From positions 1 through 37,094 of the IMG/VR virus record IMGVR_UViG_3300044641_002715: a stretch of DNA of 37,094 bases. One strand, given 5' to 3'. The translations under genes and the position numbers were made by a program. The notes beneath the pieces were generated by a model that saw nothing but the letters and a program-made list of their open reading frames with translations, was not told where the DNA came from and made no database searches. Of the stretch, positions 3,750-37,094 are shown one piece after another (within the stretch, counting starts at the first letter, position 1; each line of letters begins with the position of its first letter). The DNA is from a virus.

Positions 3750-4351
3750 GTAATGTTTCTATAAGTGTTAGTAATATAGGAAAAACCTACACTATGCGAA
3801 ACTATTTTTTTCTTAGCAATAAATGTATTAATTAGCCCACTTATTTTTATGAAATGCCCATCGGCTGTTAATGTTTGCCTGTTTAGTTCTTCTATAAATA
3901 AATCGTAAACGCTTTCACGAATGATATAAGCAAAAGTTCCCCATGCTCCGTAACATTGGTTAACGTTTTCTGAATATGGCGATGGGTGCGCTTTGTTTGT
4001 ACCGCCTAAATAAAACAAATCCCAATCATCTGGAAGTTCAGCAATACATTTATTAAACTTATCGTGAAAGTCTAAAGGAAACTGTACATCATCCTCAAAA
4101 ACTAAAACGTGCGGTAAGTTCTTTTCTTTGGCTTCTTTGATTATTTCTAAGTGAGAAAGTAAACAGCCAATCTCAAACCGATTAATCCATTGGCTATCTC
4201 TTAGTTTTTCACCGTCTTTTGCTTCTTTCCTTTCTGCTTTAATTCCTGTTTTGGCAATGCTTCTTTCAAAAGCGTTTCTTCTTTCGGTTGCTCGGTCAAG
4301 GTTGATGTAATAGGCGTGTTCAACTGCTTTAAATGGTCTTGGCTTTTTTTT
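3737..4351 (-). CDS. GT25-family glycosyltransferase reading frame lacking its own start (frameshift with upstream GT2)
   Basis: The frame is open from just after a TGA (4352-4354) to 3737. It contains the GT25 signature pieces: YYINLDRATERR at about 4312-4277, RFEIGCLLSHLEIIKEA, and the acidic motif HVLVFEDDVQFP. No ATG, GTG or TTG occurs between the TGA and 4018, and starting at 4018 would remove all these motifs. A run of nine A (minus strand; T9 at 4344-4352) lies where the GT2 frame would slip by -1 into this one. A shift there gives a GT2-GT25 fusion of about 462 residues. GT25 enzymes transfer sugars onto LPS or proteins. The alternatives are transcriptional slippage or a homopolymer assembly error. 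Confidence 0.7.
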   Translation of the reverse strand, partial: KKKPRPFKAVEHAYYINLDRATERRNAFERSIAKTGIKAERKEAKDGEKLRDSQWINRFEIGCLLSHLEIIKEAKEKNLPHVLVFEDDVQFPLDFHDKFNKCIAELPDDWDLFYLGGTNKAHPSPYSENVNQCYGAWGTFAYIIRESVYDLFIEELNRQTLTADGHFIKISGLINTFIAKKKIVSHSVGFSYITNTYRNITWLQ

Positions 4352-5124
4352 TCAATCGTAACTTCTGCTATTACTAAATGTGGCTGCTTATCATACAATA
4401 TTTCTAATTCAGCCTGAGTGATTTTATTAGTCAATTTGATATTGTGCTGCCCTACTACTGCAAGACCACCAATATACTTAGGATTTAATGTAAGTTTCAT
4501 ATAATATTTTTTTACTAAAGTAGGGATTTTTTCTTTAATTCCACGCAAAAGGTAAGACTGTTGTTTATTCCAAATCCTTTGTGCTATATTATGTCGTTTG
4601 ATTATTTGAGGTTGTCCGTAAATATTAAATAGTTGAAAGTAAAAATCTAAATCTAATACCATTTTTAATTGCTCATTAAACCGTACTTTACACTTATTAA
4701 ACGATATAACACTTGGCATACCTATACAGTTAGTTTCGGTTGTAATGGTACGAATAAAATCAGGATATTGATTTATTCTTTTGCCATTCTCAAAGTAATG
4801 TGTAGATGCTGATACTTTCCATGTATCGGTGATAAATTCGTGTAGACAATCAGTAATAAACCAATCATCTTGGTACATTATTTTAACACAATCATATTTA
4901 GCCATGTCAATAGCTGCATTAGTATTGGCACTTACACCAAAGGTCTTATTATTATGTTGCCATCTTGCACCATACTTGTTACAAAGGTCATAGAACGTTC
5001 CGCTATTATCGCTTACACATATCTCATAATCTTTGAAAGACTGCATATTAATAGACTGCAATAGCTTTTCAAGTGTGGCGTGTCCTTCGCCTTGTTCGTA
5101 TGCCGGTATGCAAATACTAATCAC
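4201..5124 (-). CDS. GT2-family glycosyltransferase
   Basis: Residues 1-200 are a GT-A fold family 2 glycosyltransferase: MISICIPAYEQGEGHATLEK, DYEICVSDNSG, and YQDDWF as the metal/nucleotide-sugar region, then a short C-terminal helix. The start is a GTG at 5124 overlapping the stop of the methyltransferase gene, so translational coupling is likely. From residue 209 (ATG at 4500) there is an unrelated 99-residue tail beginning MKLTLNPKYIGGLAVVGQ and ending in a Lys/Gln-rich stretch; this could be an internally initiated small protein. The last 50 codons overlap the GT25 frame. Confidence 0.8.
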   Translation of the reverse strand: MISICIPAYEQGEGHATLEKLLQSINMQSFKDYEICVSDNSGTFYDLCNKYGARWQHNNKTFGVSANTNAAIDMAKYDCVKIMYQDDWFITDCLHEFITDTWKVSASTHYFENGKRINQYPDFIRTITTETNCIGMPSVISFNKCKVRFNEQLKMVLDLDFYFQLFNIYGQPQIIKRHNIAQRIWNKQQSYLLRGIKEKIPTLVKKYYMKLTLNPKYIGGLAVVGQHNIKLTNKITQAELEILYDKQPHLVIAEVTIEKKSQDHLKQLNTPITSTLTEQPKEETLLKEALPKQELKQKGKKQKTVKN

Positions 5125-5686
5125 ATTTCAAAATTAATAGTCCGTTGTTGTTTTGTGCAAAGTAATCTATTTTCCATTGCGGATTTACTTTAAGAAACTG
5201 AAATATTGCAGGTAACAGTCCAACATTTTCGCTATGCACTTTAACTTTGTTATCTGCGTGTCCGTATATTTGTTCATCGGTATAAGCGAAACTTACAACA
5301 TCGTGAAATCCTAAATACTTTTTAGCTACGTTACCGTGTTTGTTTAGCTCCATTGACAACTGATTATAGGTGTGTAAGGTATCAATAAAAAGAAAATCTA
5401 CATCGCCTAAATTAAAATCTTCTTCTAAAGTAGAACCGTGCTTAAAGTAAAAGTTAATAGCTTTTTGCTTTGCGTAGTTCTTAGCCATTTCCAAATTAGT
5501 TGACTTGTAAACATCAACTCCAATGTAAGTCGTTTTAGGTTTGAGCCCTTCAAGAATTGCCCATGTGCTTACTACTTCACGTGTGCCAAATTCTGCAACT
5601 ATTTCGCATTCTGCTGAATAGTGTTTGATAATTTCCAAGTGTTCGTTAATATCGCTTGGTGTCTGCTTTAAATGTTCATATTTCAT
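5117..5686 (-). CDS. SAM-dependent methyltransferase (Methyltransf_24-like)
   Basis: A 189-residue class I methyltransferase fold. Motif I is IVAEFGTREVVSTWAILEG, followed by YIGVDVY as the acidic strand-2 end, a HGSTLEED stretch, and VDFLFIDTLHTYNQLSMEL, typical of small-molecule or sugar methyltransferases of the Methyltransf_24/cephalosporin-hydroxylase-like group. It sits between a DUF616-like glycosyltransferase and the GT2 with overlaps of 8-11 nt, so it probably modifies the same glycan. It lacks a DNA methyltransferase motif IV. Confidence 0.7.
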   Translation of the reverse strand: MKYEHLKQTPSDINEHLEIIKHYSAECEIVAEFGTREVVSTWAILEGLKPKTTYIGVDVYKSTNLEMAKNYAKQKAINFYFKHGSTLEEDFNLGDVDFLFIDTLHTYNQLSMELNKHGNVAKKYLGFHDVVSFAYTDEQIYGHADNKVKVHSENVGLLPAIFQFLKVNPQWKIDYFAQNNNGLLILKCD

Positions 5687-6308
5687 TGTGTGGAATTAAT
5701 TTAAAATATTCGTTATCAATTAAGGTGTTCCAAGTTATAGTATTTACTTTCATCTGTTGTGCAAAATAAGAAAACATTGGTTGGTCAATAGTTAGATATT
5801 TACATTCGCTTTCCCACCATTTATCAAATATAGCATTTACTTTATCATTATTGTATCTGGCAAATATTCCACACGCCCATAATCCCATTCTTTCAGGGAA
5901 ATTATTTGAACGTAAAAAGGCATTAACAGCCAATAAATCACTTTTATTATATCTGCTTTCTAAGTACTTGTTGCCGTTTTCTATTTCACGAATAATATAG
6001 TACATTTCAGAATATGCACAATCTCTTAAGTTATGTTTACCTATTGCAATGTCATTGTTAGCTAATTGCTCAACCATGTATTTTACAAAGTTTTCGCTTT
6101 TTACTTGTACGCTGCTGTCAATCCAAATGTGTATATCTGCATCAGAAAATAAATGCGATTGCATCTTTGGTAGTTTTGCCTTATGCCTATTATCCCCTAC
6201 AATATTCACATCATCTATTCTTATTAAATCATATTCTAAAGTCTGATTAGGAATTAATTTCGGTATATCAAACCCGCCAACGTTAGCTGTTATTACTGCT
6301 ATTTTCAT
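5676..6308 (-). CDS. DUF616 / TOD1-like glycosyltransferase
   Basis: The 210-residue protein starts MKIAVITANVGGFDIPKLI and carries the pattern of DUF616 (TOD1/MUCI70-like) proteins: a HKAKLPKMQSHLF segment, then HIWIDSSVQV as the D-x-S acidic motif and DQPMFSY near the C-terminus. These are GT-A-like putative glycosyltransferases. It is the first enzyme of a four-gene glycan block embedded in the virion genes, overlapping the next gene by 11 nt. The substrate is unknown. Confidence 0.65.
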   Translation of the reverse strand: MKIAVITANVGGFDIPKLIPNQTLEYDLIRIDDVNIVGDNRHKAKLPKMQSHLFSDADIHIWIDSSVQVKSENFVKYMVEQLANNDIAIGKHNLRDCAYSEMYYIIREIENGNKYLESRYNKSDLLAVNAFLRSNNFPERMGLWACGIFARYNNDKVNAIFDKWWESECKYLTIDQPMFSYFAQQMKVNTITWNTLIDNEYFKLIPHNEI

Positions 6309-7152: not shown

Positions 7153-8157
7153 TTAAAATCCAGCGATTACGTTCAAATCACCAAAGCCATACTCATAAGC
7201 GATAAGTGCGCTACCGATTAAGTAGTAGGTATCGTCTTTTTTCTCGTACCATGCTTCTTGTTGTGCTAAACCGTTTGCATCCATCAATAATTTGTGGTTG
7301 CTTGGGTCAGTCAAGATTACACGGTAAGGATTTGTAGGTGCAGCAGGTGAACCTGTTAAGAAATCTTCTTCTAATCTTTCGTCAACGATAGGTACAACTA
7401 AGATTGGAATGTTTAAGAAGAAGTTAGCTTCTAAGCCATTAACGATAGACTCTCTTTGAATAATACCTGCATTTGTTTGAGTTGACACATACAAGTAATT
7501 CAAGTAAGCATCATTAACCGCTTCATTCCAAATCCATGTCTTAGCATTCTTAGCCACGCCTTTTAACTGTCTGCTTTGCTTATCATAAATGCCTTTCATA
7601 GTAGCAAAGAAGTTAGTAGGACTCAAATCAGAAGCCGTAATAGCACCTGCAAAAACAGTACCATCTGAAGCGTTTGCACCTGCTTTCAACTTCTTATAAA
7701 TACCATCAAACGGAGTGTAGTAAGGTACTGCGCTAATAGTATCACCTAAGAACAAGAATGATAATAAATCTCTGTTAAATGCATACTGTTGTTGTGTAGC
7801 CATGAACGCTAATACTTCTGCACTTAACTCACCACGTCTCCAACCATCAGGCAAACCACCTGCATAGATAGTGTTGATTAATGGAGTGTAGCATTGTTCT
7901 ACTGCTGCTTCAATTTCAACAGGAACTAATGTCTTTTTCGTTACATCTGTTGAACCGTTGAAGTTCCAACCACATGCTACTTTCTTGCTTGAAATCTTAT
8001 CCAAGTTTTGAGTAAAGTAAAGCTCGTGGTTCTTAAAAGGACCTACCAACATATCAAACGGTAAAGATTGAATTTGTGGGTCGTTCAATAAAGGTTTAAC
8101 GTACAGGTTATATCCTTCTGTTTCCTGTACAGGTACTGTGTTAATTACGTTTGCCAT
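7153..8157 (-). CDS. Major capsid protein
   Basis: A 334-residue protein starting MANVINTVPVQETEGYNLYV, directly after the protease/scaffold gene with only 3 nt between them. It has a long-helix-like region with VEIEAAVEQCYTPLINTIYA, a central domain (TWIWNEAVNDAYLNYLY) and a C-terminal beta-rich part ending VIAGF, compatible with an HK97-fold shell protein. Length, gene order (protease, scaffold, capsid) and a more GC-biased codon use than its neighbours support high expression. Confidence 0.85.
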   Translation of the reverse strand: MANVINTVPVQETEGYNLYVKPLLNDPQIQSLPFDMLVGPFKNHELYFTQNLDKISSKKVACGWNFNGSTDVTKKTLVPVEIEAAVEQCYTPLINTIYAGGLPDGWRRGELSAEVLAFMATQQQYAFNRDLLSFLFLGDTISAVPYYTPFDGIYKKLKAGANASDGTVFAGAITASDLSPTNFFATMKGIYDKQSRQLKGVAKNAKTWIWNEAVNDAYLNYLYVSTQTNAGIIQRESIVNGLEANFFLNIPILVVPIVDERLEEDFLTGSPAAPTNPYRVILTDPSNHKLLMDANGLAQQEAWYEKKDDTYYLIGSALIAYEYGFGDLNVIAGF

Positions 8158-16214: not shown

Positions 16215-16891
16215 TTAATGGCTGATTTAATTTTATGCAATTTTTCCTGATATTCACTACTTTCTAAGTCATACAGCAACTTAGTATAAACTATTTCAGC
16301 AGGCATTGCTAAGACTTCATCGTGTGTCTTTCCATAAGCTATTGCCAAACGGTCAATAGTAGGAAAGCTACCAAACTTACTTAACACTTCCACCCCTGCC
16401 ATCTGTTCTTCTGCTTCAACCTCGCCTTCAAACAACTTTCTGTACTTTTCTAAAAACTCATTTATCTTATCGAATACAGGTCTAATCTTAGCTATTGCTA
16501 AAGGCAAATGTAATTCACTAATATCCTCTTTTAAGTAAATTAGCCCAACTTTATTTGCTGCTTTAATCCATGAACCACTTTGATTTATTTCTTGGCGTGC
16601 TTTCTCTAAATCTCCATAACTTTCTTTTCCTATGTTTAAATCTATTTCTAAGCCACCGTAATACTGTACTATATCTAATACATCGGTAAACCCTATTATG
16701 TCGCATAGTTTGCCAAAGTCCTCTAAACTAAATTCTAATAAGTCATCAATCGGAATGTTACTAATAATGTGTATTCGCTCTAATATCGGTCTACCTTGAG
16801 CTGAATGTATCTTAACAAAGTGTTGCCATGTCAATTCATCAAAGTTCGTAGGCACATTGTAAATCGTTTCTTTAACTTTAAGTTTAATCAT
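16211..16891 (-). CDS. Tail assembly chaperone-like or unknown virion protein
   Basis: A 226-residue acidic, mostly helical protein (MIKLKVKETIYNVPTNFDEL). The C-terminal segment IDRLAIAYGKTHDEVLAMPA resembles tail assembly chaperones that bind the tape measure. It starts with ATGA overlap on the terL stop and ends with ATGA overlap on the next gene. No slippery site or second overlapping chaperone frame was found, so I mark it as tentative. Confidence 0.45.
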   Translation of the reverse strand: MIKLKVKETIYNVPTNFDELTWQHFVKIHSAQGRPILERIHIISNIPIDDLLEFSLEDFGKLCDIIGFTDVLDIVQYYGGLEIDLNIGKESYGDLEKARQEINQSGSWIKAANKVGLIYLKEDISELHLPLAIAKIRPVFDKINEFLEKYRKLFEGEVEAEEQMAGVEVLSKFGSFPTIDRLAIAYGKTHDEVLAMPAEIVYTKLLYDLESSEYQEKLHKIKSAIK

Positions 16892-18849
16892 ACATCAAAA
16901 GTCTTTTTAAAGTTTCGTGCAGGTGCTTGTACTGTTCGTGTCATCGACTGTAAGCTATATCTAATAGGGTCAATGCAATTGTGAACTAATATGCCATTAG
17001 CAAAGTATTCGTGGCAATCTTCAACCATTAAATCATAAACGTATTCATATTTGCTTTCGCCTTGCTCGAAGTGCTTTAGCTTTGCAGTTTTGATGGCAGT
17101 ATTTTGAAACACCCCCATGTCTTGTAATGTATTCTTTTCCGCAAACTTCACAAATTTTTTCTTTATAAGGTCTATTAATCCAACCTTCTTTTGATTGTTG
17201 TATGTGCCAGTTTCTTCCCTCTTCAGATTTATGCCATTCTTTTGCTGCTTCAATTCCTTTTGCATGAAATTGCTTTGCAAATTCGGGATTGTTTTTAAAT
17301 CTTTTTTTTGCTTCAAATCTAAGATGTAATTTACCATGAACCATAGATAAATTGGTAATATCGTTATTATGCGGATTGCCGTCAATATGATGAACATGGT
17401 AGCCTTTTGGAACATTACCTTTATAATGTTTCCAAACTTCAACATGAAGCCTTTTACAGCCCCTGCTAAAGTATCTTTCGTTTGGGTATAATCTATATTC
17501 TTTTCCGTTAAAGACTTGTAATGGTACAATAAGTCGTTGCTCTGTAACTGTGATATTTGTTTCCATTCTTTTTCAGTTTTTATTTTATGTTCTTTTGTTG
17601 CACATAAAGATAATGAAAATGTATCGAATTGCATCGTGTATTTATTTACTTGTTTCAATCCGTTATTAAATTTAATTAGCACCTTCCTATAACCTTTACT
17701 TGTTAAAACTAAATCACCTTCTTTTATATCTTTTATTGGTATTTCCCCGCTAATAGTTGTAATTAACGTTTCACCTATAAAGCAATGGTTGTAGTCATCT
17801 ATCGGTATTCCTGCTTTCTTATCGTTCCAGCAATAGTTACTAAGTTCTTTCTTTAGGTTTGTTGACTGTGGCGTGATTACTATTCTATAATCTTGCATTT
17901 GGGTTATGCCGGCTGTTACGCTGCCTTGACCTTTAACCGCTCCTCGAATGTTTAAGCCCTTTCGGCTTAGTTCATCTATCAATCTCGGTTCAGCACTATC
18001 AGCAATAATTAAATCGTTTGGCTTATGTATCAATCGTTTGTTAGCTTCAAAGATTGCATCTGTACCCATGCCCGCTTGGCTGTAAAGTAGTTCTTCAGCA
18101 TAGATTATCTTTAACTTGTTATCTACTGCTACCTTAACCAACGTTGTAGGGTCTACGCTAAAACCGTAATCTTGACCGTAACAGTAAGGTAATGAATTGT
18201 CAAAGTCGCCTGTTATCCAATTAGTAAATATTGCACCCTCACGATTAGCACGTTGACCGCTTCCGTAAACCTGCCACCAATATTGATTATTCTTTCTGCT
18301 TTCAATGTCTTGTATTTGTGCTTCGGTTAAGTGTGGGTTGTCTTTATAGGTAGTTATGCAGGGTGGGTATTGGTCTATGTAAGTATCTAACCAATGTTCT
18401 AAACCTAATGCAGGGTTGTAGTCGGCTATTATCTTATGCCTTGTTCTTGGAAAAAGTTGGTCTATTGTTTCGGCAGGGAACTGATGTGCTTCATTTACCC
18501 AAAGTATATCGCGCGCGCGTCCATGTATCTTCGCGGGGGTGTCCGCGCCATAGTAACTAATAACATTGCCATTTAACTCATATTCGTGGTCGGTCTTATT
18601 ATGGTTGCTTTCTTTATAAAGGTTGCAATTAATTAAAACATCGCGAAAGTCTTTCCATGCCGTTGACTTTAGCGCGGTGAATGTATCGCGCACTATGTCA
18701 ATTTCCATACCGCGATATTGCAAACAGTAGTCAATTAAGAAAAGTATTGTTGAATAAGTCTTTCCAGAGCGAGTGCCGCCTTGAAGCAATATAACGCGGT
18801 CTTGTTCAATCTTATCGTATAGATGGGTAAAGTTAGGGTTTACTTTCAT
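16888..18849 (-). CDS. terL: Terminase large subunit containing an intein
   Basis: The 653-residue reading frame is a Terminase_3-type packaging ATPase/nuclease interrupted by an intein. Walker A is GGTRSGKT (24-31) and Walker B is DILWVNEAH (114-122). Nuclease acidic motifs are GQDYGFSVDP (about 225-234), IADSAEP (282-288) and the final DDYNH/CIDPIRY, split by the intein at Cys356-Asn624. After splicing the protein would be 384 residues, slightly short for the family. It would cut and pump phage DNA into the prohead. The first 113 codons carry many CGCG-rich codons (see the 18510-19214 island). The start overlaps terS by 17 nt. Confidence 0.9.
   Translation of the reverse strand: MKVNPNFTHLYDKIEQDRVILLQGGTRSGKTYSTILFLIDYCLQYRGMEIDIVRDTFTALKSTAWKDFRDVLINCNLYKESNHNKTDHEYELNGNVISYYGADTPAKIHGRARDILWVNEAHQFPAETIDQLFPRTRHKIIADYNPALGLEHWLDTYIDQYPPCITTYKDNPHLTEAQIQDIESRKNNQYWWQVYGSGQRANREGAIFTNWITGDFDNSLPYCYGQDYGFSVDPTTLVKVAVDNKLKIIYAEELLYSQAGMGTDAIFEANKRLIHKPNDLIIADSAEPRLIDELSRKGLNIRGAVKGQGSVTAGITQMQDYRIVITPQSTNLKKELSNYCWNDKKAGIPIDDYNHCFIGETLITTISGEIPIKDIKEGDLVLTSKGYRKVLIKFNNGLKQVNKYTMQFDTFSLSLCATKEHKIKTEKEWKQISQLQSNDLLYHYKSLTEKNIDYTQTKDTLAGAVKGFMLKFGNIIKVMFQKATMFIILTAIRIITILPIYLWFMVNYILDLKQKKDLKTIPNLQSNFMQKELKQQKNGINLKREETGTYNNQKKVGLIDLIKKKFVKFAEKNTLQDMGVFQNTAIKTAKLKHFEQGESKYEYVYDLMVEDCHEYFANGILVHNCIDPIRYSLQSMTRTVQAPARNFKKTFDV
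16978..17784 (-). mobile_element. Intein in TerL, with an out-of-frame HNH gene inside
   Basis: The insert is 269 codons, from Cys356 to Asn624 of TerL, with Cys625 as the +1 residue. Block A is CFIGETLITTISGEIPIKDI, block B is LCATKEHKIKT, and blocks F/G are YDLMVEDCHEYFANGILVHN followed by Cys. Between B and F the TerL frame is a long hydrophobic/basic filler with no endonuclease motif. An HNH endonuclease is encoded there in a different frame (17045-17566). The insertion splits the last nuclease motif, YNH^CIDPIRY, a highly conserved site typical for inteins. Unspliced TerL should lack nuclease activity. Confidence 0.9.
17045..17566 (-). CDS. HNH homing endonuclease, nested out of frame in the intein
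   Basis: A 173-residue HNH_3-type endonuclease. The core is GYHVHHIDGNPHNNDITNL followed by MVHGKLHLRFEAKKR, holding the His/Asn/His residues, preceded by a DNA-contact module (EYRLYPNERYFSRGCKRLHV). The C-terminus has a possible zinc-binding pair (ICEVCGKEY, KYCHQNC). It has its own ATG in an A-rich context and its own stop. The frame differs from TerL by one base throughout, so it overlaps intein codons 429-602. It would cut intein-free terL alleles and spread the insertion. Confidence 0.85.
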   Translation of the reverse strand: METNITVTEQRLIVPLQVFNGKEYRLYPNERYFSRGCKRLHVEVWKHYKGNVPKGYHVHHIDGNPHNNDITNLSMVHGKLHLRFEAKKRFKNNPEFAKQFHAKGIEAAKEWHKSEEGRNWHIQQSKEGWINRPYKEKICEVCGKEYITRHGGVSKYCHQNCKAKALRARRKQI

Positions 18850-30706: not shown

Positions 30707-30881
30707 CGAAATTAAAATATTCGCAAATCTCGTTCATTATTGCGAGATTTTGATTAGATAATAATAATTCTTCGTCAATATTACTTATATCCTCTGAATG
30801 GTCTATTGTCGTGTTTAGCCCATTAATTAATCCTCTGTCTATACAGTCTTGTAATATCTGATATGTTTTAGGCTTTAGCAT
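30693..30881 (-). CDS. Small acidic protein of unknown function
   Basis: Sixty-two residues (MLKPKTYQILQDCIDRGLIN), with an acidic and helical C-terminal half (NEICEYFNFDETE). It overlaps the genes before and after it (14 and 7 nt). Proteins of this appearance occur next to lysis or early genes in Bacteroidota phages. No function recognised. Confidence 0.5.
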   Translation of the reverse strand: MLKPKTYQILQDCIDRGLINGLNTTIDHSEDISNIDEELLLSNQNLAIMNEICEYFNFDETE

Positions 30882-31258
30882 ATTAGTAATTCAAACTCAT
30901 TAGGCATTACAGTTAATATTTCTTTCATGGCTTGTTTAGAACTTGTTACATCTAACCTACCATCATTATTAATGTCTTTTAAGCCTTTACCTGGTAATAT
31001 ACAGCCTAAAATATCAGTGTGGTAATTACCAAAATGAATAAGAATAAAATCTCTATTCTTTACGTCAAGTATATGGAAATGTTCGCCATACTTTGCGCTT
31101 GTTCTTTTCCTTACTTTATATTTTCCTTTAGGTATACAACTAACTTTTCTGTTGTTGTTTTTCCACGCTAATTCTAATGTGTGGTACACTTTGCCATTAG
31201 GTAATGTCATTATTCCTAATGTTTGTACTCCATCGTCTGAAAGTCTTTTTATAATCAT
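30875..31258 (-). CDS. DUF5675-family putative endolysin
   Basis: Using ATG 31258 (MIIKRLSDDGVQTLGIMTLP) gives 127 residues; a TTG at 31264 adds two codons. The family pattern is clear: KVSCIPKGKYKVRKR, HFHILDVKNRDFILIHFGNY, and TDILGCILPGKGL, with the His/Cys arrangement (HFGN, GC) of DUF5675. These proteins are thought to act on peptidoglycan and often stand in for endolysins. Unlike usual, it is separated from the holin and spanin-like genes by the plus-strand cassette array. Confidence 0.7.
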   Translation of the reverse strand: MIIKRLSDDGVQTLGIMTLPNGKVYHTLELAWKNNNRKVSCIPKGKYKVRKRTSAKYGEHFHILDVKNRDFILIHFGNYHTDILGCILPGKGLKDINNDGRLDVTSSKQAMKEILTVMPNEFELLIC

Positions 31259-31284
31259 ACTCAAAAATAATTATTTTTTTTATT

Positions 31285-31331: not shown

Positions 31332-31484
31332 ATGTTAAAAAATAAAGTAGGAAGACCCCTTAAATTTAAACAACAAACATCTGTTATAGGTGTTCGTGTG
31401 CCAATTGAAACTAAATTAATCTATAAAATAGAAATTGATAAAACAGTGCAAAAATTAGCAAAAGAAAGAGGGGATTTAAAGTAG
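31332..31484 (+). CDS. Small ribbon-helix-helix-like protein at the head of the cassette array
   Basis: Fifty residues (MLKNKVGRPLKFKQQTSVIG), basic, with a GRP-x(n)-strand (SVIGVRVPIETKL) followed by a short helix, resembling RHH antitoxin or copy-number regulators. Its TAG overlaps the first base of the R'' box of attC1, so the gene lies in the position of cassette 1. I could not find its own 5' cassette boundary. It has the promoter at 31285-31314 directly upstream. Confidence 0.55.
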   Translation: MLKNKVGRPLKFKQQTSVIGVRVPIETKLIYKIEIDKTVQKLAKERGDLK

Positions 31485-31615
31485 GTTAACGTTTTGCATA
31501 TACCCGAAGGAGGGGATTACGAAGCATGTAACTATCAATTAACAATGAATATTAACCGAAGCACATACGTTCATTTCAGCACTAAAACCCCTCTTTTGGG
31601 TATATGCTGTTATAG
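31484..31615 (+). repeat. attC site 1
   Basis: R'' ends GTTAAC (31490) and R' is GTTATAG (31609-31615). Arms GCATATACCC (31496-31505) and GGGTATATGC (31598-31607) are perfect inverted copies. Length 132 nt. The loop holds an ATG with a frame reading NRSTYVHFSTKTP before R'. Confidence 0.85.
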
Positions 31616-31641
31616 CCAGTGCTTCTTAAATCTAAATTAAA

Positions 31642-31821
31642 ATGACAAAGAAATTTTCAGACCTTTATGTGGTTGTCAAAACTGATAACCTACTTTACAC
31701 CGATGCTGTTTATGATTTCAAGACTGCGGAAAGTGTCTGTGCAATCGCTAAAGATAGCGGGTATCCAAATGCAGAAGTAATTACTTTATCTTATGCGATT
31801 TGTAATGGATACCAGTTTTAG
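31642..31821 (+). CDS. Cassette 2 protein, unknown function
   Basis: A 59-residue protein, MTKKFSDLYVVVKTDNLLYT, with no Cys-rich or catalytic motif. It uses its own ATG 24 bases after the cassette start. The frame ends TAG only 6 bases before the R'' of attC2, as cassette genes usually do. The product is unknown, as is common for integron cassettes. Confidence 0.65.
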   Translation: MTKKFSDLYVVVKTDNLLYTDAVYDFKTAESVCAIAKDSGYPNAEVITLSYAICNGYQF

Positions 31822-31827
31822 CATTGG

Positions 31828-31959
31828 CTATAACGGTTTATTGCTTTGCGAAGTGGCGGATTTGGAACACCACATCTTCAATATAGAACTACCGTTCAAT
31901 AAAATTACAAGGGTTCAAATTAGCACTTCACCCGCCATTTTGCAAAGCAAGTGTTATCG
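31828..31959 (+). repeat. attC site 2
   Basis: R'' is CTATAAC (31828-31834) and R' GTTATCG (31953-31959). Inverted arms: TTGCTTTGCGAAGTGGCGG (from 31841) against CCGCCATTTTGCAAAGCAA (31932-31950), with two mismatches. Length 132 nt. There is no ATG in the loop, unlike the other four. Confidence 0.85.
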
Positions 31960-32007
31960 GTTCGGGCTTCTCCAATTTTAGAAGTCCACAATTTTATTAT
32001 CAAGAAA

Positions 32008-32289
32008 ATGAAAAGAGTAATTTGGAAATTCCCATTAGAAGTAACCGATGTTCAGGACATTGAAATTCCACACGGTTCAATTTTATTATCAGTTCAAACC
32101 CAAAATGAAACACCTTGCTTATGGGCTTTGATTTACAACACAGAAGCGGAAAAAGAAGTAATCCGATTAAGAACAATTGGAACGGGCAATCCGATAAGTG
32201 ATGAAGATTTTGACCCACGTGATTTTTTAGGTACTTATCAATTAGGTGGCGGTTCATTTGTCGGACACGTTTTTCAGGTCACGTCTTAG
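32008..32289 (+). CDS. Cassette 3 protein, DUF7352-like
   Basis: A 93-residue protein from ATG 32008: MKRVIWKFPLEVTDVQDIEI, then LLSVQTQNETPCLWALIYN, RTIGTGNPISDEDF and GTYQLGGGSFVGHVFQV. This order fits a small family seen in phages and bacterial accessory DNA (DUF7352-like; K-W-x-x-P-V-x-D-x-Q, L-W-A-L, G-T-G-x-P). A GTG frame starting at 31951 would include part of attC2; the ATG is the better start. The function of the family is not known to me. Confidence 0.65.
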   Translation: MKRVIWKFPLEVTDVQDIEIPHGSILLSVQTQNETPCLWALIYNTEAEKEVIRLRTIGTGNPISDEDFDPRDFLGTYQLGGGSFVGHVFQVTS

Positions 32290-32295
32290 CCTGAC

Positions 32296-32427
32296 CGCTA
32301 ACGTTTTGCAGCTAACCGAAGTTGGCGATTGCAAAGCACAAAAATTGAATATAAAAAGAATGTTAAACCGAAGCACAACAGTTCATTTCAGCACTACACC
32401 GCCAATTTTGGTTAGGTGCTGTTATGT
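32296..32427 (+). repeat. attC site 3
   Basis: R'' is CGCTAAC (32296-32302), R' GTTATGT (32421-32427). Arms CAGCTAACCGAAGTTGGCG (32309-32327) and CGCCAATTTTGGTTAGGTGC (from 32400) are imperfect inverted copies. Length 132 nt. The loop contains an ATG (32360) with NRSTTVHFSTTPP, very similar to attC1's loop peptide. Confidence 0.85.
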
Positions 32428-32456
32428 GCCGTTTTTCTTCACAAATCAATAATAAA

Positions 32457-32696
32457 ATGTCAAAACAATTACCAAACACAAGAGAAGAAGCATTTGCTTA
32501 CCAATTTGAGGATGATGTTAAAATTCTTCATTCTATGGCTGTAATGAGCAAAGAAGGATTTAGGAAACATTTGTCAGTATTACAAGCACACATTGATGCT
32601 TATAATAATTTAGATTTACAAAAATTTTGCGAAGAAGCCGAAAGAAAACACAAAATTCAAAAGCAGTATATGTTGGATAATTATGGGTTGTCTTAA
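32457..32696 (+). CDS. Cassette 4 protein, unknown function
   Basis: A 79-residue charged helical protein (MSKQLPNTREEAFAYQFEDD; then FRKHLSVLQAHIDAYNN and EEAERKHKIQKQYMLDN). The ATG at 32457 lies 35 bases after the cassette start. It ends 6 bases before the R'' of attC4. The composition suggests an all-helical fold, perhaps a DNA-binding or toxin-antitoxin-type protein, but there is no recognised domain. Confidence 0.6.
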   Translation: MSKQLPNTREEAFAYQFEDDVKILHSMAVMSKEGFRKHLSVLQAHIDAYNNLDLQKFCEEAERKHKIQKQYMLDNYGLS

Positions 32697-32702
32697 AATG
32701 GC

Positions 32703-32834
32703 ACATAACGTTTCGGGCATTGCAGAAGGCAGGGATTAATAGTACAAACTTTCAATATAGCACAAATGATAAAAGAACTTACAACAGATGAATTAAAGCA
32801 GTCAAGCCCTGCTTTTTGCAATGCCTTGTTATAC
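32703..32834 (+). repeat. attC site 4
   Basis: R'' is ACATAAC (32703-32709), R' GTTATAC (32828-32834). Arms GGCATTGCAGAAGGCAGGG (from 32717) and CCCTGCTTTTTGCAATGCC (32807-32825) are inverted with two mismatches. Length 132 nt. The loop holds the ATG (32766) of the cassette 5 reading frame. Confidence 0.85.
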
Positions 32835-33074
32835 GCAGGGCATTTGTCAACGGATGAACTTTTTGCGGTTTTTGACCAATTAAAGTACAAGGCTTTTGGA
32901 TTTCCTGCTGTGATGCTTTACAAGATGGAGCATAATGACTACTGGGAAGCAGGATTAAGAAACGATGTAAACTGGGTAGAACCAAAGATTGATTGTAAAG
33001 GAAAAACCGCAAAAGATGCAATGGTTTTAATGTACGCTTGGTGTGTCCACAAGGGATACTTGCCTTGCGTATAA
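32766..33074 (+). CDS. Cassette 5 protein, unknown; start lies in the preceding attC
   Basis: A 102-codon frame whose first 21 codons (MIKELTTDELKQSSPAFCNA...) lie in attC4, upstream of the recombination point (32828/32829). The rest (GHLSTDELFAVFDQLKYKAF, WEAGLRNDVNWVEPKIDC, AKDAMVLMYAWCVHKGYL) belongs to cassette 5. No ATG near the crossover exists; a TTG at 32844 is the only early alternative. It ends in the first bases of attC5 (TAA 33072-33074). The domain is unknown, though the C-terminal AKDAMVLMYAW helix recalls small phage proteins. Confidence 0.55.
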   Translation: MIKELTTDELKQSSPAFCNALLYAGHLSTDELFAVFDQLKYKAFGFPAVMLYKMEHNDYWEAGLRNDVNWVEPKIDCKGKTAKDAMVLMYAWCVHKGYLPCV

Positions 33075-33200
33075 CGTTTCTCGGCTTTGTGCAGTGCCGA
33101 ATTAAAATGCACAAAACTTTAAATTAAGCAAAAATGATATTAGAAAACGAAAACTTTAAATTAGCACTGAACTCGGCATTGCACAAAACCGATGTTAGCG
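33069..33200 (+). repeat. attC site 5
   Basis: R'' is GTATAAC (33069-33075), R' GTTAGCG (33194-33200). Arms GGCTTTGTGCAGTGCCGA (from 33083) and TCGGCATTGCACAAAACC (33173-33190) are inverted with two mismatches. Length 132 nt. The loop holds the ATG (33134) of the methyltransferase frame. Confidence 0.85.
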
Positions 33201-33838
33201 GTAGTGTTTTATTCCACGCAGATTGCTTGGAAGTATTACCTAAATTATTTGAAAATTCAGTTGATTATAGTTTTACTTCTCCGCCTTACAACAGAAAGAG
33301 AAATGATAAATATTCAGATTTTACAGATATAAACGAAAATTGGTTACAACTAAATATTGATGTTATTACGGAACTTTTGAGAGTTACAAAAAAACACATA
33401 TTCTACAATATACAAGCTAATTATTACAACCGCCAAGATGTTTATAAATTGATTGGTCATTTTAGTAAAAAAATTGTTGATGTGCATATTTGGGAAAAAT
33501 CAAATCCGATGCCAGCAAGTGGTAAAAATATCACAAATGCAGTTGAATACTTTTTGATATTAGGAAGCGAAAGTTTAAAGTCAAATACAACTTACACTAA
33601 AAATATTATTACAACTTCTGTAAATTCAAGTATGCCAAAAGAGCATAAAGCAGTAATGAAAACAGATGTAGCTGAACACTTTATTAGTAAGTTTACACAA
33701 GAAAATGATATTATTTTAGATTGTTTTTTTGGATATGGAACAACTGGTTTAGTGGCAAAAGAAATGAATAGAAGATATATTGGAATTGAAAAAGAAAAAT
33801 CTTATTTCGATATGTCGGTTGAGCGGTGTGGTTTGTAA
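33134..33838 (+). CDS. Beta-class DNA methyltransferase (cassette 6)
   Basis: A 234-codon frame. The N-terminal motif is FHADCLEVLPKLF, motif IV is FTSPPYNRKRND (TSPPY at 48-52), and motif I comes at the end, DCFFGYGTTG (196-205), so the order is that of beta-class N6-adenine or N4-cytosine methyltransferases. About 40 residues upstream, AVMKTDVAEHFISKF is the SAM-binding motif X. Codons 1-20 lie in attC5 before the crossover (33194/33195), so the start codon comes from the preceding cassette. No restriction gene is nearby. It could shield phage DNA from host restriction. Confidence 0.8.
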   Translation: MILENENFKLALNSALHKTDVSGSVLFHADCLEVLPKLFENSVDYSFTSPPYNRKRNDKYSDFTDINENWLQLNIDVITELLRVTKKHIFYNIQANYYNRQDVYKLIGHFSKKIVDVHIWEKSNPMPASGKNITNAVEYFLILGSESLKSNTTYTKNIITTSVNSSMPKEHKAVMKTDVAEHFISKFTQENDIILDCFFGYGTTGLVAKEMNRRYIGIEKEKSYFDMSVERCGL

Positions 33839-33841
33839 CAT

Positions 33842-33851
33842 TACCGCTAAC
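33842..33851 (+). repeat. Remnant R'' box of the sixth attC
   Basis: TACCGCTAAC here is the exact reverse complement of the start of cassette 6 (GTTAGCGGTA at 33194-33203), so it is the R'' box of the cassette 6 attC. The following bases have none of the inverted arms or R' box. The array therefore ends by truncation. Confidence 0.75.
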
Positions 33852-33895
33852 TGCTAATAGACGAAATTACTAGTAAAATAAAACATTGATTATTA

Positions 33896-34114
33896 ATGTA
33901 CATTTTTACAACACACCTCTGTTATGATGGAAAAATTGGCGTAACTTGTAATGGTGAATATTACGAATTAGAAAGCGGGTTAAGATTAAATCGTGAATAT
34001 CATAATGGCGCAATATACTATCGTTGTATTGGAAGTAAAAAAAGGTATAGCTGGAAAAAATGCAATGACACCAAAATAGCTAAAGCAGTAAAGATAATAG
34101 AAATGCCTTTTTAG
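33896..34114 (+). CDS. Small basic protein of unknown function after the array
   Basis: Seventy-two residues (MYIFTTHLCYDGKIGVTCNG), beta-rich and basic (RCIGSKKRYSWKKC). Its stop overlaps the stop of the minus-strand spanin-like gene by 4 nt, so the two genes converge. It lies 45 bases beyond the last attC remnant and has no attC of its own, so it may be phage-native or a leftover of a cassette. Not recognised. Confidence 0.5.
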   Translation: MYIFTTHLCYDGKIGVTCNGEYYELESGLRLNREYHNGAIYYRCIGSKKRYSWKKCNDTKIAKAVKIIEMPF

Positions 34115-34677
34115 CGCAAAAACTTCCTTCTAATCGTTAATAAAAGCCCCATAGGTGTATTGACCTTGTAATATGTTTTAAGCCCCTTATAGGCTATGTA
34201 AATGGCTATAATTAAGAATGCGCAACCGCCAAATTGTATTTTCACTTTTTCCCACCAATTTAAGTTGGGTTCAACTAATTTAGGCACGAATACTGTTGAC
34301 TGTTCGCTCTTAAACTTATTAATCGTGGTATTTAATGTTTTAATGCTATCTAAGTATGCTAAACAAGTAGCCTGAATAGTTAGCGTATTATCTTTAATTG
34401 AACTGCTTAAAATGCTTCTATTGCCATTAGTAGTTGTTTTATTAACGATGGTTGCCTTTCCTGTACTATCGCAAACTATTTTTATGATTTGAATGGAAGT
34501 ATCAGCAGGAACTTTCACATAGTATGTGATAGTATCAAACGTTATTGAAAGACTGTCTTTAATTACTATCGAAGTATCACTAAATTGATTAAAGCACTTC
34601 TCACATTTTTTTATTTGTCTTGAAGTTGAGCAAGAAAATAAAGTACTAATTAGTAGGAGCGTCAATACCTGTTTCAT
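34111..34677 (-). CDS. Spanin-like lipoprotein (possible unimolecular spanin)
   Basis: A 188-residue protein with a lipoprotein signal (MKQVLTLLLISTLFSCSTS; lipobox LFSC, Cys16), a periplasmic beta-rich region with repeated Thr/Ser (NKTTTNGNRSILSSSIKDN), then a coiled-coil-like stretch and a C-terminal transmembrane segment (GGCAFLIIAIYIAYKGL). A lipid anchor at one end and a transmembrane anchor at the other is the topology of unimolecular spanins that fuse the two membranes during lysis. The neighbouring holin supports this. Its start overlaps the holin gene by 32 nt. Confidence 0.6.
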   Translation of the reverse strand: MKQVLTLLLISTLFSCSTSRQIKKCEKCFNQFSDTSIVIKDSLSITFDTITYYVKVPADTSIQIIKIVCDSTGKATIVNKTTTNGNRSILSSSIKDNTLTIQATCLAYLDSIKTLNTTINKFKSEQSTVFVPKLVEPNLNWWEKVKIQFGGCAFLIIAIYIAYKGLKTYYKVNTPMGLLLTIRRKFLR

Positions 34678-35119
34678 TGTATTGTTTTAAACGATTAACA
34701 ATCCATTTCGGAATTAAATTTGGTTGAATTACAGCGCATTTTTCAAATAGGCTTAATATTTCTCTTACCACTATTCCAGAATAAATTACACTATCTAACC
34801 ATGCTAATATCATTATGTCATTTCCGTTTGCTTTTACATGGGTTGCTGAATGACTACATATAAGCATAACCATATAGACTATAATCTTTGTAAATAACTT
34901 GGCGAATTTATCAGAGGAAACATTTTTTTTTACAAAGGCTACATAAAATCCTAATATCGTGTCAAGGGCAATAAGTACGGTTAGCATAGCGATAAACTCC
35001 CAATCGTTAAAAACATATTTATCAATAATCATAATGACAAAAGATAACACGCTTGAAATTGCCCCAAATTCAGCAAGCGACAATATCTTTTTTCCAATTA
35101 CAAAACTAAGTGATTTCAT
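34646..35119 (-). CDS. Holin (phage_holin_4-like)
   Basis: A 157-residue protein with hydrophobic segments (FGAISSVLSFVIMIIDKYVF, FIAMLTVLIALDTILGFYVA, and ILAWLDSVIYSGIVVREILS) separated by short charged loops, and a hydrophilic C-terminus. The LTVLIALDTILG motif recalls the TcdE/holin-4 family (D-x-x-x-G after a hydrophobic stretch). It would form the membrane lesion at lysis. It overlaps the spanin-like gene; the endolysin-like gene lies on the other side of the cassette array. Confidence 0.75.
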   Translation of the reverse strand: MKSLSFVIGKKILSLAEFGAISSVLSFVIMIIDKYVFNDWEFIAMLTVLIALDTILGFYVAFVKKNVSSDKFAKLFTKIIVYMVMLICSHSATHVKANGNDIMILAWLDSVIYSGIVVREILSLFEKCAVIQPNLIPKWIVNRLKQYNETGIDAPTN

Positions 35120-36500: not shown

Positions 36501-36740
36501 ATCTGTAAAGTTACTCCTATATTTCCTGTTGGCAAATTTTTGGCATACACTTTTACCCCTCCAGATTGTGCATCTGTTTTAGGCAATATTTGTGCTGCTA
36601 TTACTATATCTATATCTGCATTATTTGGTATTATATCAACACTACTTGACGCTGTTATATTTGCGTTGCTTAATACTTGTTCTTGTAATCCTGATACTAA
36701 ACTCCACCCTGCTGTTGTAAGCGTTGCACTCGCTTGTATA
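36457..36740. repeat. Right copy of the near-identical terminal repeat (partner 1-284)
   Basis: Same sequence as 1-284 with no difference in the first 126 bases and scattered mismatches after. It covers the end of the fibre gene copy and the start of the PKD/LamG gene. After 36740 the sequence differs completely from positions 285 onward. Confidence 0.85.
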
Positions 36741-37094
36741 AATCTATTTTGCTTGCCGTTAAATGTACTCCAATCTGCACTACTTAAAGCACCTCTATTT
36801 AATGCACTTGCGGTCGGAAGATTGAATGTATGTGTATCTGTTACTGAATTTATTGCAAAATCAGTTCCACTTGTACCTGTTGCAAAGTTTTGTACTTGAG
36901 CAATTAAGCCATTTAGTGCCGTTAAGCCTGTTGAAAAAGTAGTTATTACTTGACAAAGGTTGTTATCTTCTGTATGTAAAGTTACAGTTCTATTGCCTGA
37001 TGTATTTACATGTACTCTTACAGCTAGCCTATCAGTAGCTAATAATGTAGTTTGTGGTACAGGTATTGCTGTAGTATATAAATCTACTTGAGTA
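36491..37094 (-). CDS. Second version of the tail fibre, C-terminal part only
   Basis: The partial protein (201 codons to the edge) shares its last 80 or so residues with the fibre at 35-1084, but its upstream part is unrelated: DRLAVRVHVNTSGNRTVTLH, NSVTDTHTFNLPTASALNRG, LSSADWSTFNGKQN, the last being a recurring segment of Bacteroidota phage fibre proteins. The start lies beyond the window. This is either an allele of the same gene in another strain or a second fibre gene. Confidence 0.7.
   Translation of the reverse strand, partial: TQVDLYTTAIPVPQTTLLATDRLAVRVHVNTSGNRTVTLHTEDNNLCQVITTFSTGLTALNGLIAQVQNFATGTSGTDFAINSVTDTHTFNLPTASALNRGALSSADWSTFNGKQNRFIQASATLTTAGWSLVSGLQEQVLSNANITASSSVDIIPNNADIDIVIAAQILPKTDAQSGGVKVYAKNLPTGNIGVTLQIWQ

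Follow-up and report, generated by a model that had tools for sequence, protein, structure and literature searches.

The virus record IMGVR_UViG_3300044641_002715 (IMG/VR), analysed over its whole length of 37,094 nucleotides and referred to here as the window, carries an array of five small gene units between 31491 and 33851. As a whole, the array is best explained as an integron-type mobile cassette array whose enzyme is supplied in trans by a Bacteroidota host, a reading to which we assign a probability of roughly 0.8. Integrons are a well-known machinery for stockpiling and reordering genes, and the integron attC consensus comprises an R' box, GTTRRRY, and an R'' box, RYYYAAC. In the mechanism proposed for the window, each unit would consist of a folded single-strand recombination site, an open reading frame (ORF), and a 3' terminus whose sequence complements the unit start. 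A tyrosine recombinase would join units at TAAC (GTTA on the other strand) and add new ones at the 33851 end, the presumptive attI position. The phage would bring the sites and the insertion end and no recombinase; the Bacteroidota host would supply the enzyme, most likely a member of the tyrosine recombinase family found at the attI end of bacterial arrays with the same sites. By such cassettes, lytic phages could gain, lose, and reorder small genes, including DNA methyltransferases, which would shield the phage from host restriction. The features of the array are as follows, with borders of the whole array placed by analogy with the cut and paste seen in the lillamy phages of Flavobacterium.

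31491..33851 (+), whole array, five units, each with hairpin, ORF, and complementary end
31488..31612 (+), recombination site 1 (attC-like hairpin), 114.6 bits; single-stranded DNA fold z -3.67 on the + strand
31642..31821 (+), cassette ORF, 59 amino acids (aa), no family
31832..31956 (+), recombination site 2, 106.8 bits
32008..32289 (+), cassette ORF, 93 aa, DUF7352 (PF24043, E 5e-22) or phrog_3848 (E 4e-20)
32300..32424 (+), recombination site 3, 125.1 bits; fold z -1.52
32457..32696 (+), cassette ORF, 79 aa, no confident family
32707..32831 (+), recombination site 4, 101.2 bits
32766..33074 (+), cassette ORF, 102 aa, no confident family; listed start within the loop of site 4
33073..33197 (+), recombination site 5, 108.7 bits
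33134..33838 (+), cassette ORF, 234 aa, N6/N4 DNA methyltransferase (PF01555, E 5.4e-33; PADLOC MTase_II); listed start within site 5
33849..33870 (+), array end, AAC then phage sequence, attI-like position complementary to the start of the last cassette

The sites share a layout: bounded by AAC and GTT, each has a brief unpaired segment and a stem of roughly 20 bp with a loop of about 80 nt. All five measure 125 nt from AAC to GTTA; a sequence-only reading of this DNA had described five sites of 132 nt, of which the number and the equal length hold, while the larger figure corresponds to wider ends. A covariance model, the check that this reading had proposed, returns the five sites at 101-125 bits, with the next-best match in the window at 14.4 bits (filters off). 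This model, R1, was made from 24 sites from the window, viruses, phages, and genomes; because the five window sites are among them, their bit scores are not independent, and support beyond those scores comes from covariation and from relatives. Changes on both sides are found at 18 of 20 stem pairs in the 24-site model, far above shuffles and slid controls, and none of 500 shuffles equals its covariation score. When genome sites are aligned to the model (the best 150 of 202 matches), 17 of 20 pairs show such changes. Comparison of sites thus shows a conserved hairpin. One stem position lacks covariation: among sites with letters there, G faces T in 142 of 144 from genomes and 73 of 74 from viruses, in alignments fitted to the model. 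Since this position is G.T on one strand and C.A on the other, it may mark the strand used. Folding of the separate strands, likewise proposed as a check, gives a mixed answer, with z-scores favouring the + strand at four of the five window sites and the folding of site 3 matched by 15 of 200 shuffles. An Rfam scan of the window yields zero matches. Because R1, which scores a fixed maximum of candidates per genome, misses short sites such as those of Polaribacter phage P12002L, site counts are lower bounds and some long phage units may hold two cassettes.

The boundaries of the cassettes are shown by their ends. In the window, the first bases of each cassette are reverse-complementary to its last ones, with 14 of 15 nt matching in four cassettes and 8 of 9 in the fifth, and this pairing of every start with its own end ranks best of 120 permutations. 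Such complementarity is what would be expected of a unit once closed into a circle. The sequence-only reading had noticed that cassette starts are complementary to their own R'' box; this is borne out, with an extent of about 15 nt instead of 7. Elsewhere, at least 8 of the first 10 nt are complementary in 49 of 67 genome cassettes and 37 of 53 viral cassettes, compared with 650 of 4422 and 387 of 2756 unrelated start-end pairs, respectively. In genome and viral arrays alike, complementarity extends to about position 15, except at position 10, and then falls; among cassettes passing the 8-of-10 filter, position 11 is G.T in 39 of the 49 from genomes and 31 of the 37 from viruses. The filter is failed by 18 of 67 genome and 16 of 53 viral cassettes, for which overlooked sites in between would be one cause. 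The cassette with the 79-aa ORF has a 5' leader of 26-45 nt after its site (window 32421-32459) in common with cassettes of five other viral contigs (L004, L009, L011, L013, and L015), as if the leader belonged to the cassette frame; no longer match was found between the window and the cassettes of these five.

The comparison with integrons is close and incomplete. Like integrons, these systems have cassette arrays of one orientation that can become very large, folded sites with compensatory changes and structure conserved over sequence, cassette starts complementary to their own 3' core site, a join at G/TT, and, in all likelihood, insertion at one end beside a tyrosine recombinase. Unlike integrons, they have complementary cassette ends of about 15 nt, usually with G.T at position 11, an almost unvarying G.T pair within the stem, and a putative attI on the stop-codon side of the recombinase, for which the generally reversed orientation of Spirochaetota IntIs offers a precedent (PMC9668308). 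The R' boxes of the window sites (GTTATAG, GTTATCG, GTTATGT, GTTATAC, and GTTAGCG) also differ: GTT and AAC themselves are kept in five of five and GTTRRRY fits none, contrary to the sequence-only reading. That consensus is given for integron attC as G/TTRRRY, with the slash at the joint (PMC9892861). The phage shows no IntI-family integrase, and the array recombinase of bacteria lacks the IntI-specific insertion and falls outside the IntI branch. With the site and cassette properties present and GTTRRRY and IntI absent, the array is integron-like, would use another recombinase, and in its phage form would rely on the host. Within the window, its five sites and zero matches to PF00589 (tyrosine recombinase) place it among clusters of attC sites without an integrase (CALINs, at least two such sites), as had been proposed from the sequence, where the lack of an integron integrase was also correctly noted. 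CALINs in virulent phages were demonstrated by Qi et al. 2023 (PMC9892861), whose integrase-less attC clusters in lytic phages and methyltransferase cassettes resemble those described here; the covered sections of that paper contain neither cassette movement between isolates nor a link to a Bacteroidota recombinase, and ascribe divergent attC directions in P12002L to mosaicism.

Cassette movement can be read directly from isolated phages. A blast search finds the site type in Baltic Sea Flavobacterium phages, and the array region was taken from 15 of 46 listed Flavobacterium phage records, giving 158 units of 38 kinds. A term search of the main text of the paper on these phages finds neither integron nor cassette. 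An identical (100%) 439-bp unit, unit 12, is internal in one of lillamy9-6 and lillamy9-7 and at the array end in the other, and both empty joints of the moved unit are seen, TAAC/G and TAAC/TACAATATTACATG; unit 0 is missing from lillamy9-7, and unit order is otherwise the same apart from unit 12. Phages mumin6-1 and mumin6-3 differ by one unit at a single joint, as do lillamy9-1 and lillamy9-7, where one unit is present or absent. Compared in this way, the isolates show precise gain or loss and one relocation. All 15 arrays end in AAC/TACAATATTACATG, and nine unit kinds are found adjoining this conserved end, while the far end is near constant (unit 1 in 15/15 arrays, unit 0 in 12/15); variety is concentrated at the insertion end. 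The base before AAC is T at 158 of 158 unit borders. Isolated lytic phages that differ by single cassettes are a natural experiment from which movement, polarity, and exact joint can be read.

Ordinary phage mosaicism, in which homologous recombination between similar hairpins would do the same work with no site-specific enzyme, is an improbable source of these differences. The hairpins are indeed alike, and in our own reading one snusmum6-1 hairpin looks like a hybrid of two from filifjonk9-1. Against this stand the moved lillamy unit, which has only about five bases (ATAAC) in common with its new joint, near-identical unit copies that sit in different neighbourhoods, and cassette ends complementary to their own starts. 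Several annotated methyltransferases of the Flavobacterium phages lie in the array region, and the phages' authors linked reduced plating on host LMO6 to the lack of one methyltransferase (PMC7077304); together, these observations suggest that cassette exchange may tune phage escape from host restriction. PF00589 is absent from 12 of 12 such Flavobacterium phages; elsewhere it is matched in 1 of 16 further records of viruses and in all 3 plasmids scanned.

Relatives of the window phage from other metagenomes carry different cassettes at the same locus. In L234, DNA identity is 93% across the left junction (31337-31497), yet three other cassettes follow and the array ends in GCGTATAAC/TACCGAATACACG; L235 differs again, left gene included. 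The identity of L234 through the junction removes the worry of a chimeric join for the left edge, and the right edge is not reproduced base for base in relatives. Blastn of the window array against phages and plasmids gives partial matches only. An assembly chimera was considered and rejected in light of the relatives with other cassettes, the left junction of L234, and arrays of the same kind in isolated phages. On its reverse strand, at about 7450-8020, L234 holds an extra 0.6 kb or so with a tRNA-like part directly left of its array.

In bacteria, the same sites are widespread in one phylum. A fixed pattern for one common site form occurs in at least 120 stretches of GTDB genomes; among these, 77 of the 80 stretch titles shown are Bacteroidota or Ignavibacteria. 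Model matches are found in 106 of 198 Bacteroidota genomes and in 4 of 148 genomes of the phylum of G232, including the centre genome that was picked for its site. One very long array lies on the CP058707 chromosome, where the listed sites are all on one strand over about 500 kb.

C1:3475743-3978524, chromosomal array of CP058707 (G029), a metagenome-assembled genome (MAG) titled Bacteroidota bacterium SSA2, at least 150 sites

A genome titled Limnohabitans MAG (G230, the source of L027) has 78 sites despite its non-Bacteroidota title, probably through contamination or a wrong title. The Myroides plasmid pFM-G13 (L020), typed as mobilizable, has a site match at 3991-4113, closely followed by genes for a tyrosine recombinase and an IS91-family transposase (4348-6203).

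A tyrosine recombinase gene stands at that end of the CP058707 array at which insertion is predicted from the phages, and other arrays have genes like it at the corresponding end. Of the 198 Bacteroidota genomes, 64 have both recombinase and sites, 6 the recombinase only, 42 sites only, and 86 neither, at a recombinase E cut of 1e-79 placed in a gap of the ranking; sites thus occur in 64 of 70 genomes with the recombinase and 42 of 128 without (Fisher p 1.6e-16, kinship not corrected). The recombinase is present in 40 of 81 genomes of the Flavobacterium lacus genus. Among 40 recombinase loci, taken as the next 40 by E-value from 35 genomes, 26 have sites within about 10 kb, and in 24 of these 26 the sites lie on the stop-codon side, convergent. 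This is a fairer count than that from an earlier set, in which 17 of 20 loci had sites, a figure biased because the first 14 were picked after sites had been seen nearby. PF00589 and SAM-like domains are present in both array recombinases scanned, and the listed array-neighbour recombinases score below the integron-integrase cut-off. The array recombinase lacks 42 IntI-specific columns, 33 of which Xer lacks too. Of one array recombinase, the best solved-structure matches are XerA-type (4a8e, 5hxy), then IntI4 in two pieces, then XerD. Adjacency to cassette arrays and a branch apart from both IntI and Xer distinguish the array recombinases from XerA and XerC-XerD. All eight genomes examined for Xer also hold XerD above its cut-off along with a second Xer-like match, called XerC by rank only. 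In a tree, 23 array-type rows, including two whose loci lack sites, group on one side of a branch with modest support (64/87, 97% of bootstrap trees), and IntI makes up another (100/99). When the tree is rooted on the Xer side, the fork that separates array recombinases from IntI is weak, so IntI may have arisen among the former. Virus record G006 (168 kb), which has sites, encodes at L161 a recombinase that groups with the array recombinases; L161 does not overlap the array locus analysed in that record.

The same array could instead be moved by the host's classic IntI or housekeeping Xer recombinases, a possibility we regard as unlikely, if the least unlikely of the alternatives weighed here. 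IntI1 recombined the attC2 bottom strand, and not attC1, of the Bacteroidota phage P12002L (PMC9892861), and classic IntI is above the cut-off in 56 of the 198 Bacteroidota genomes. Yet none of 20 classic IntI loci has an R1 site nearby, and classic IntI shows no positive association with sites, which occur in 23 of 56 genomes with it and 83 of 142 without. The array-type recombinase remains the preferred candidate for the enzyme that the host would supply.

The bacterial loci also suggest where insertion takes place. In 13 of 18 loci, a distance of 16-115 nt separates the end of the last cassette from the stop codon of the recombinase gene, and in a second locus set 9 of the 20 array ends found fall within 134 nt of this codon. 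A profile of bacterial attI, made from 22 ends selected for their closeness to the recombinase gene, has the consensus TTGTTTATATACGCAAC and gives 6 of 9 viral array ends rank one or two when all AAC positions in the locus are compared; the nine were chosen by eye from 22 rows for having no further hairpin, and the rest, L006 included, were left out. The window array stops at 33851, at an AAC without a hairpin beyond and without an integrase beside it, and insertion at an array end is seen in the lillamy phages. No attI sequence is claimed for the window array end, where the profile failed.

A number of these results weigh against the favoured explanation. The window's right end misfits the bacterial attI profile (rank 1314 of 1576), as does the end of the Moomin phages (rank 152 of 571), and the L015 end fails it as well. 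Three of the 13 ends close to a stop codon are weak, L186 by score and L171 and L179 in that they imply a last cassette of more than 6 kb. Of the 106 site-bearing genomes, 42 have no strong recombinase match, and the association of recombinase with sites ignores the kinship of the genomes. No site lies in the stretch examined at 14 of the 40 recombinase loci, and the ranking itself leans towards array neighbours, since its profile was built from 13 recombinases of which 12 lie beside arrays and the 13th on a site-bearing plasmid.

The orientation of genes relative to the site separates viral from bacterial arrays. Of 69 viral intervals, 63 have their genes running in one common direction (1 opposed, 5 undecided); of 63 bacterial intervals, 62 have them running in the reverse direction (0 opposed, 1 undecided). 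Four related Moomin phages account for 34 of the 63 viral intervals, and there is overlap between L002 and L007. An earlier, overlapping set gave 40 to 1 in viruses and 4 to 48 in bacteria (4 of 52 decided intervals pointing the viral way). An initial rule that genes always point toward the attI end proved wrong for bacteria by these counts and was replaced. Viruses and bacteria agree in site and joint end, so the hairpin of a viral cassette precedes its gene; two window ORFs have listed starts within a hairpin site. This opposite polarity is a sharp, testable puzzle.

Polarity also bears on whether the window array is a passive bacterial integron fragment caught by a phage, in effect a dead CALIN. 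The absence of an integrase from the phage and the published CALINs of virulent phages (PMC9892861) would suit such an origin, which nonetheless appears very unlikely: viral cassettes are oriented opposite to bacterial ones, one cargo family (DUF7352) is phage-like, close relatives of the window phage carry other cassettes at the same locus, and arrays turn over in isolated phages. The DUF7352 cassette protein, alone among the small ones in having a clear family, has relatives in 37 phage records, in a search that left bacterial genomes outside. The sequence-only reading had suggested that phages carry and swap host cassettes; exchange of cassettes among phages is well supported, whereas capture of host cassettes is not, given the reversed polarity and the phage relatives of DUF7352.

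Beyond a mobile array served by its host, we moderately favour a broader reading in which Bacteroidota hold a second integron class with a non-IntI recombinase, and lytic phages a matching, separate cassette pool that uses the host integrase in trans and reshuffles counter-defence genes during infection. As part of this same reading, the viral pool would have its own insertion end, its own cargo, genes reversed relative to the site, and no enzyme. IntegronFinder 2.0 reports few integrons in Bacteroidota, where earlier only an In0 and then a complete integron in Salinibacter were found (PMC9024848). If roughly half of Bacteroidota do carry arrays with a different kind of site and a different recombinase, the reach currently credited to integrons is too small. 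Integron cassettes in phages have already been published; for the recombinase link and the polarity split, no published parallel was found in open PMC papers, with preprints outside the search.

Around the array, the window supports a tailed phage of Bacteroidota, as had been read from the sequence. Terminase, portal, virion structural protein, tape measure, primase-helicase, NinG, and holin are found among the scanned - strand ORFs, and the cassette ORFs, short proteins and a DNA methyltransferase as first described, all run against the direction of the main phage genes. Small ORFs beyond both array edges (31332-31484 and 33896-34114) are also opposite to the main phage genes. PADLOC gives no match for the four small cassette proteins of the window. 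The flanks of the array are as follows.

30875-31264, DUF5675 gene by family match, left flank
31332..31484 (+), phage gene, 50-aa ORF at the left array edge, common to relative L234 (93% DNA identity over 31337-31497)
34111-35119, lipoprotein-like ORF without family, and holin, right flank

An earlier placement of the array between endolysin and spanin uses names that are plausible for these neighbours; the family matches give neither name. Further from the array, an intein (Intein_splicing PF14890, Hint) lies within the terminase large subunit ORF at 16888-18849 (-), which is overlapped in another frame (17045-17566) by an ORF of 173 aa with a family match to HNH endonuclease. Near-alike translations are found at both ends of the record (84-464 and 36540-36899), each beginning MAYTFTPPDCASVLGN, perhaps because a tail-gene domain has been duplicated or because an end repeat has diverged.

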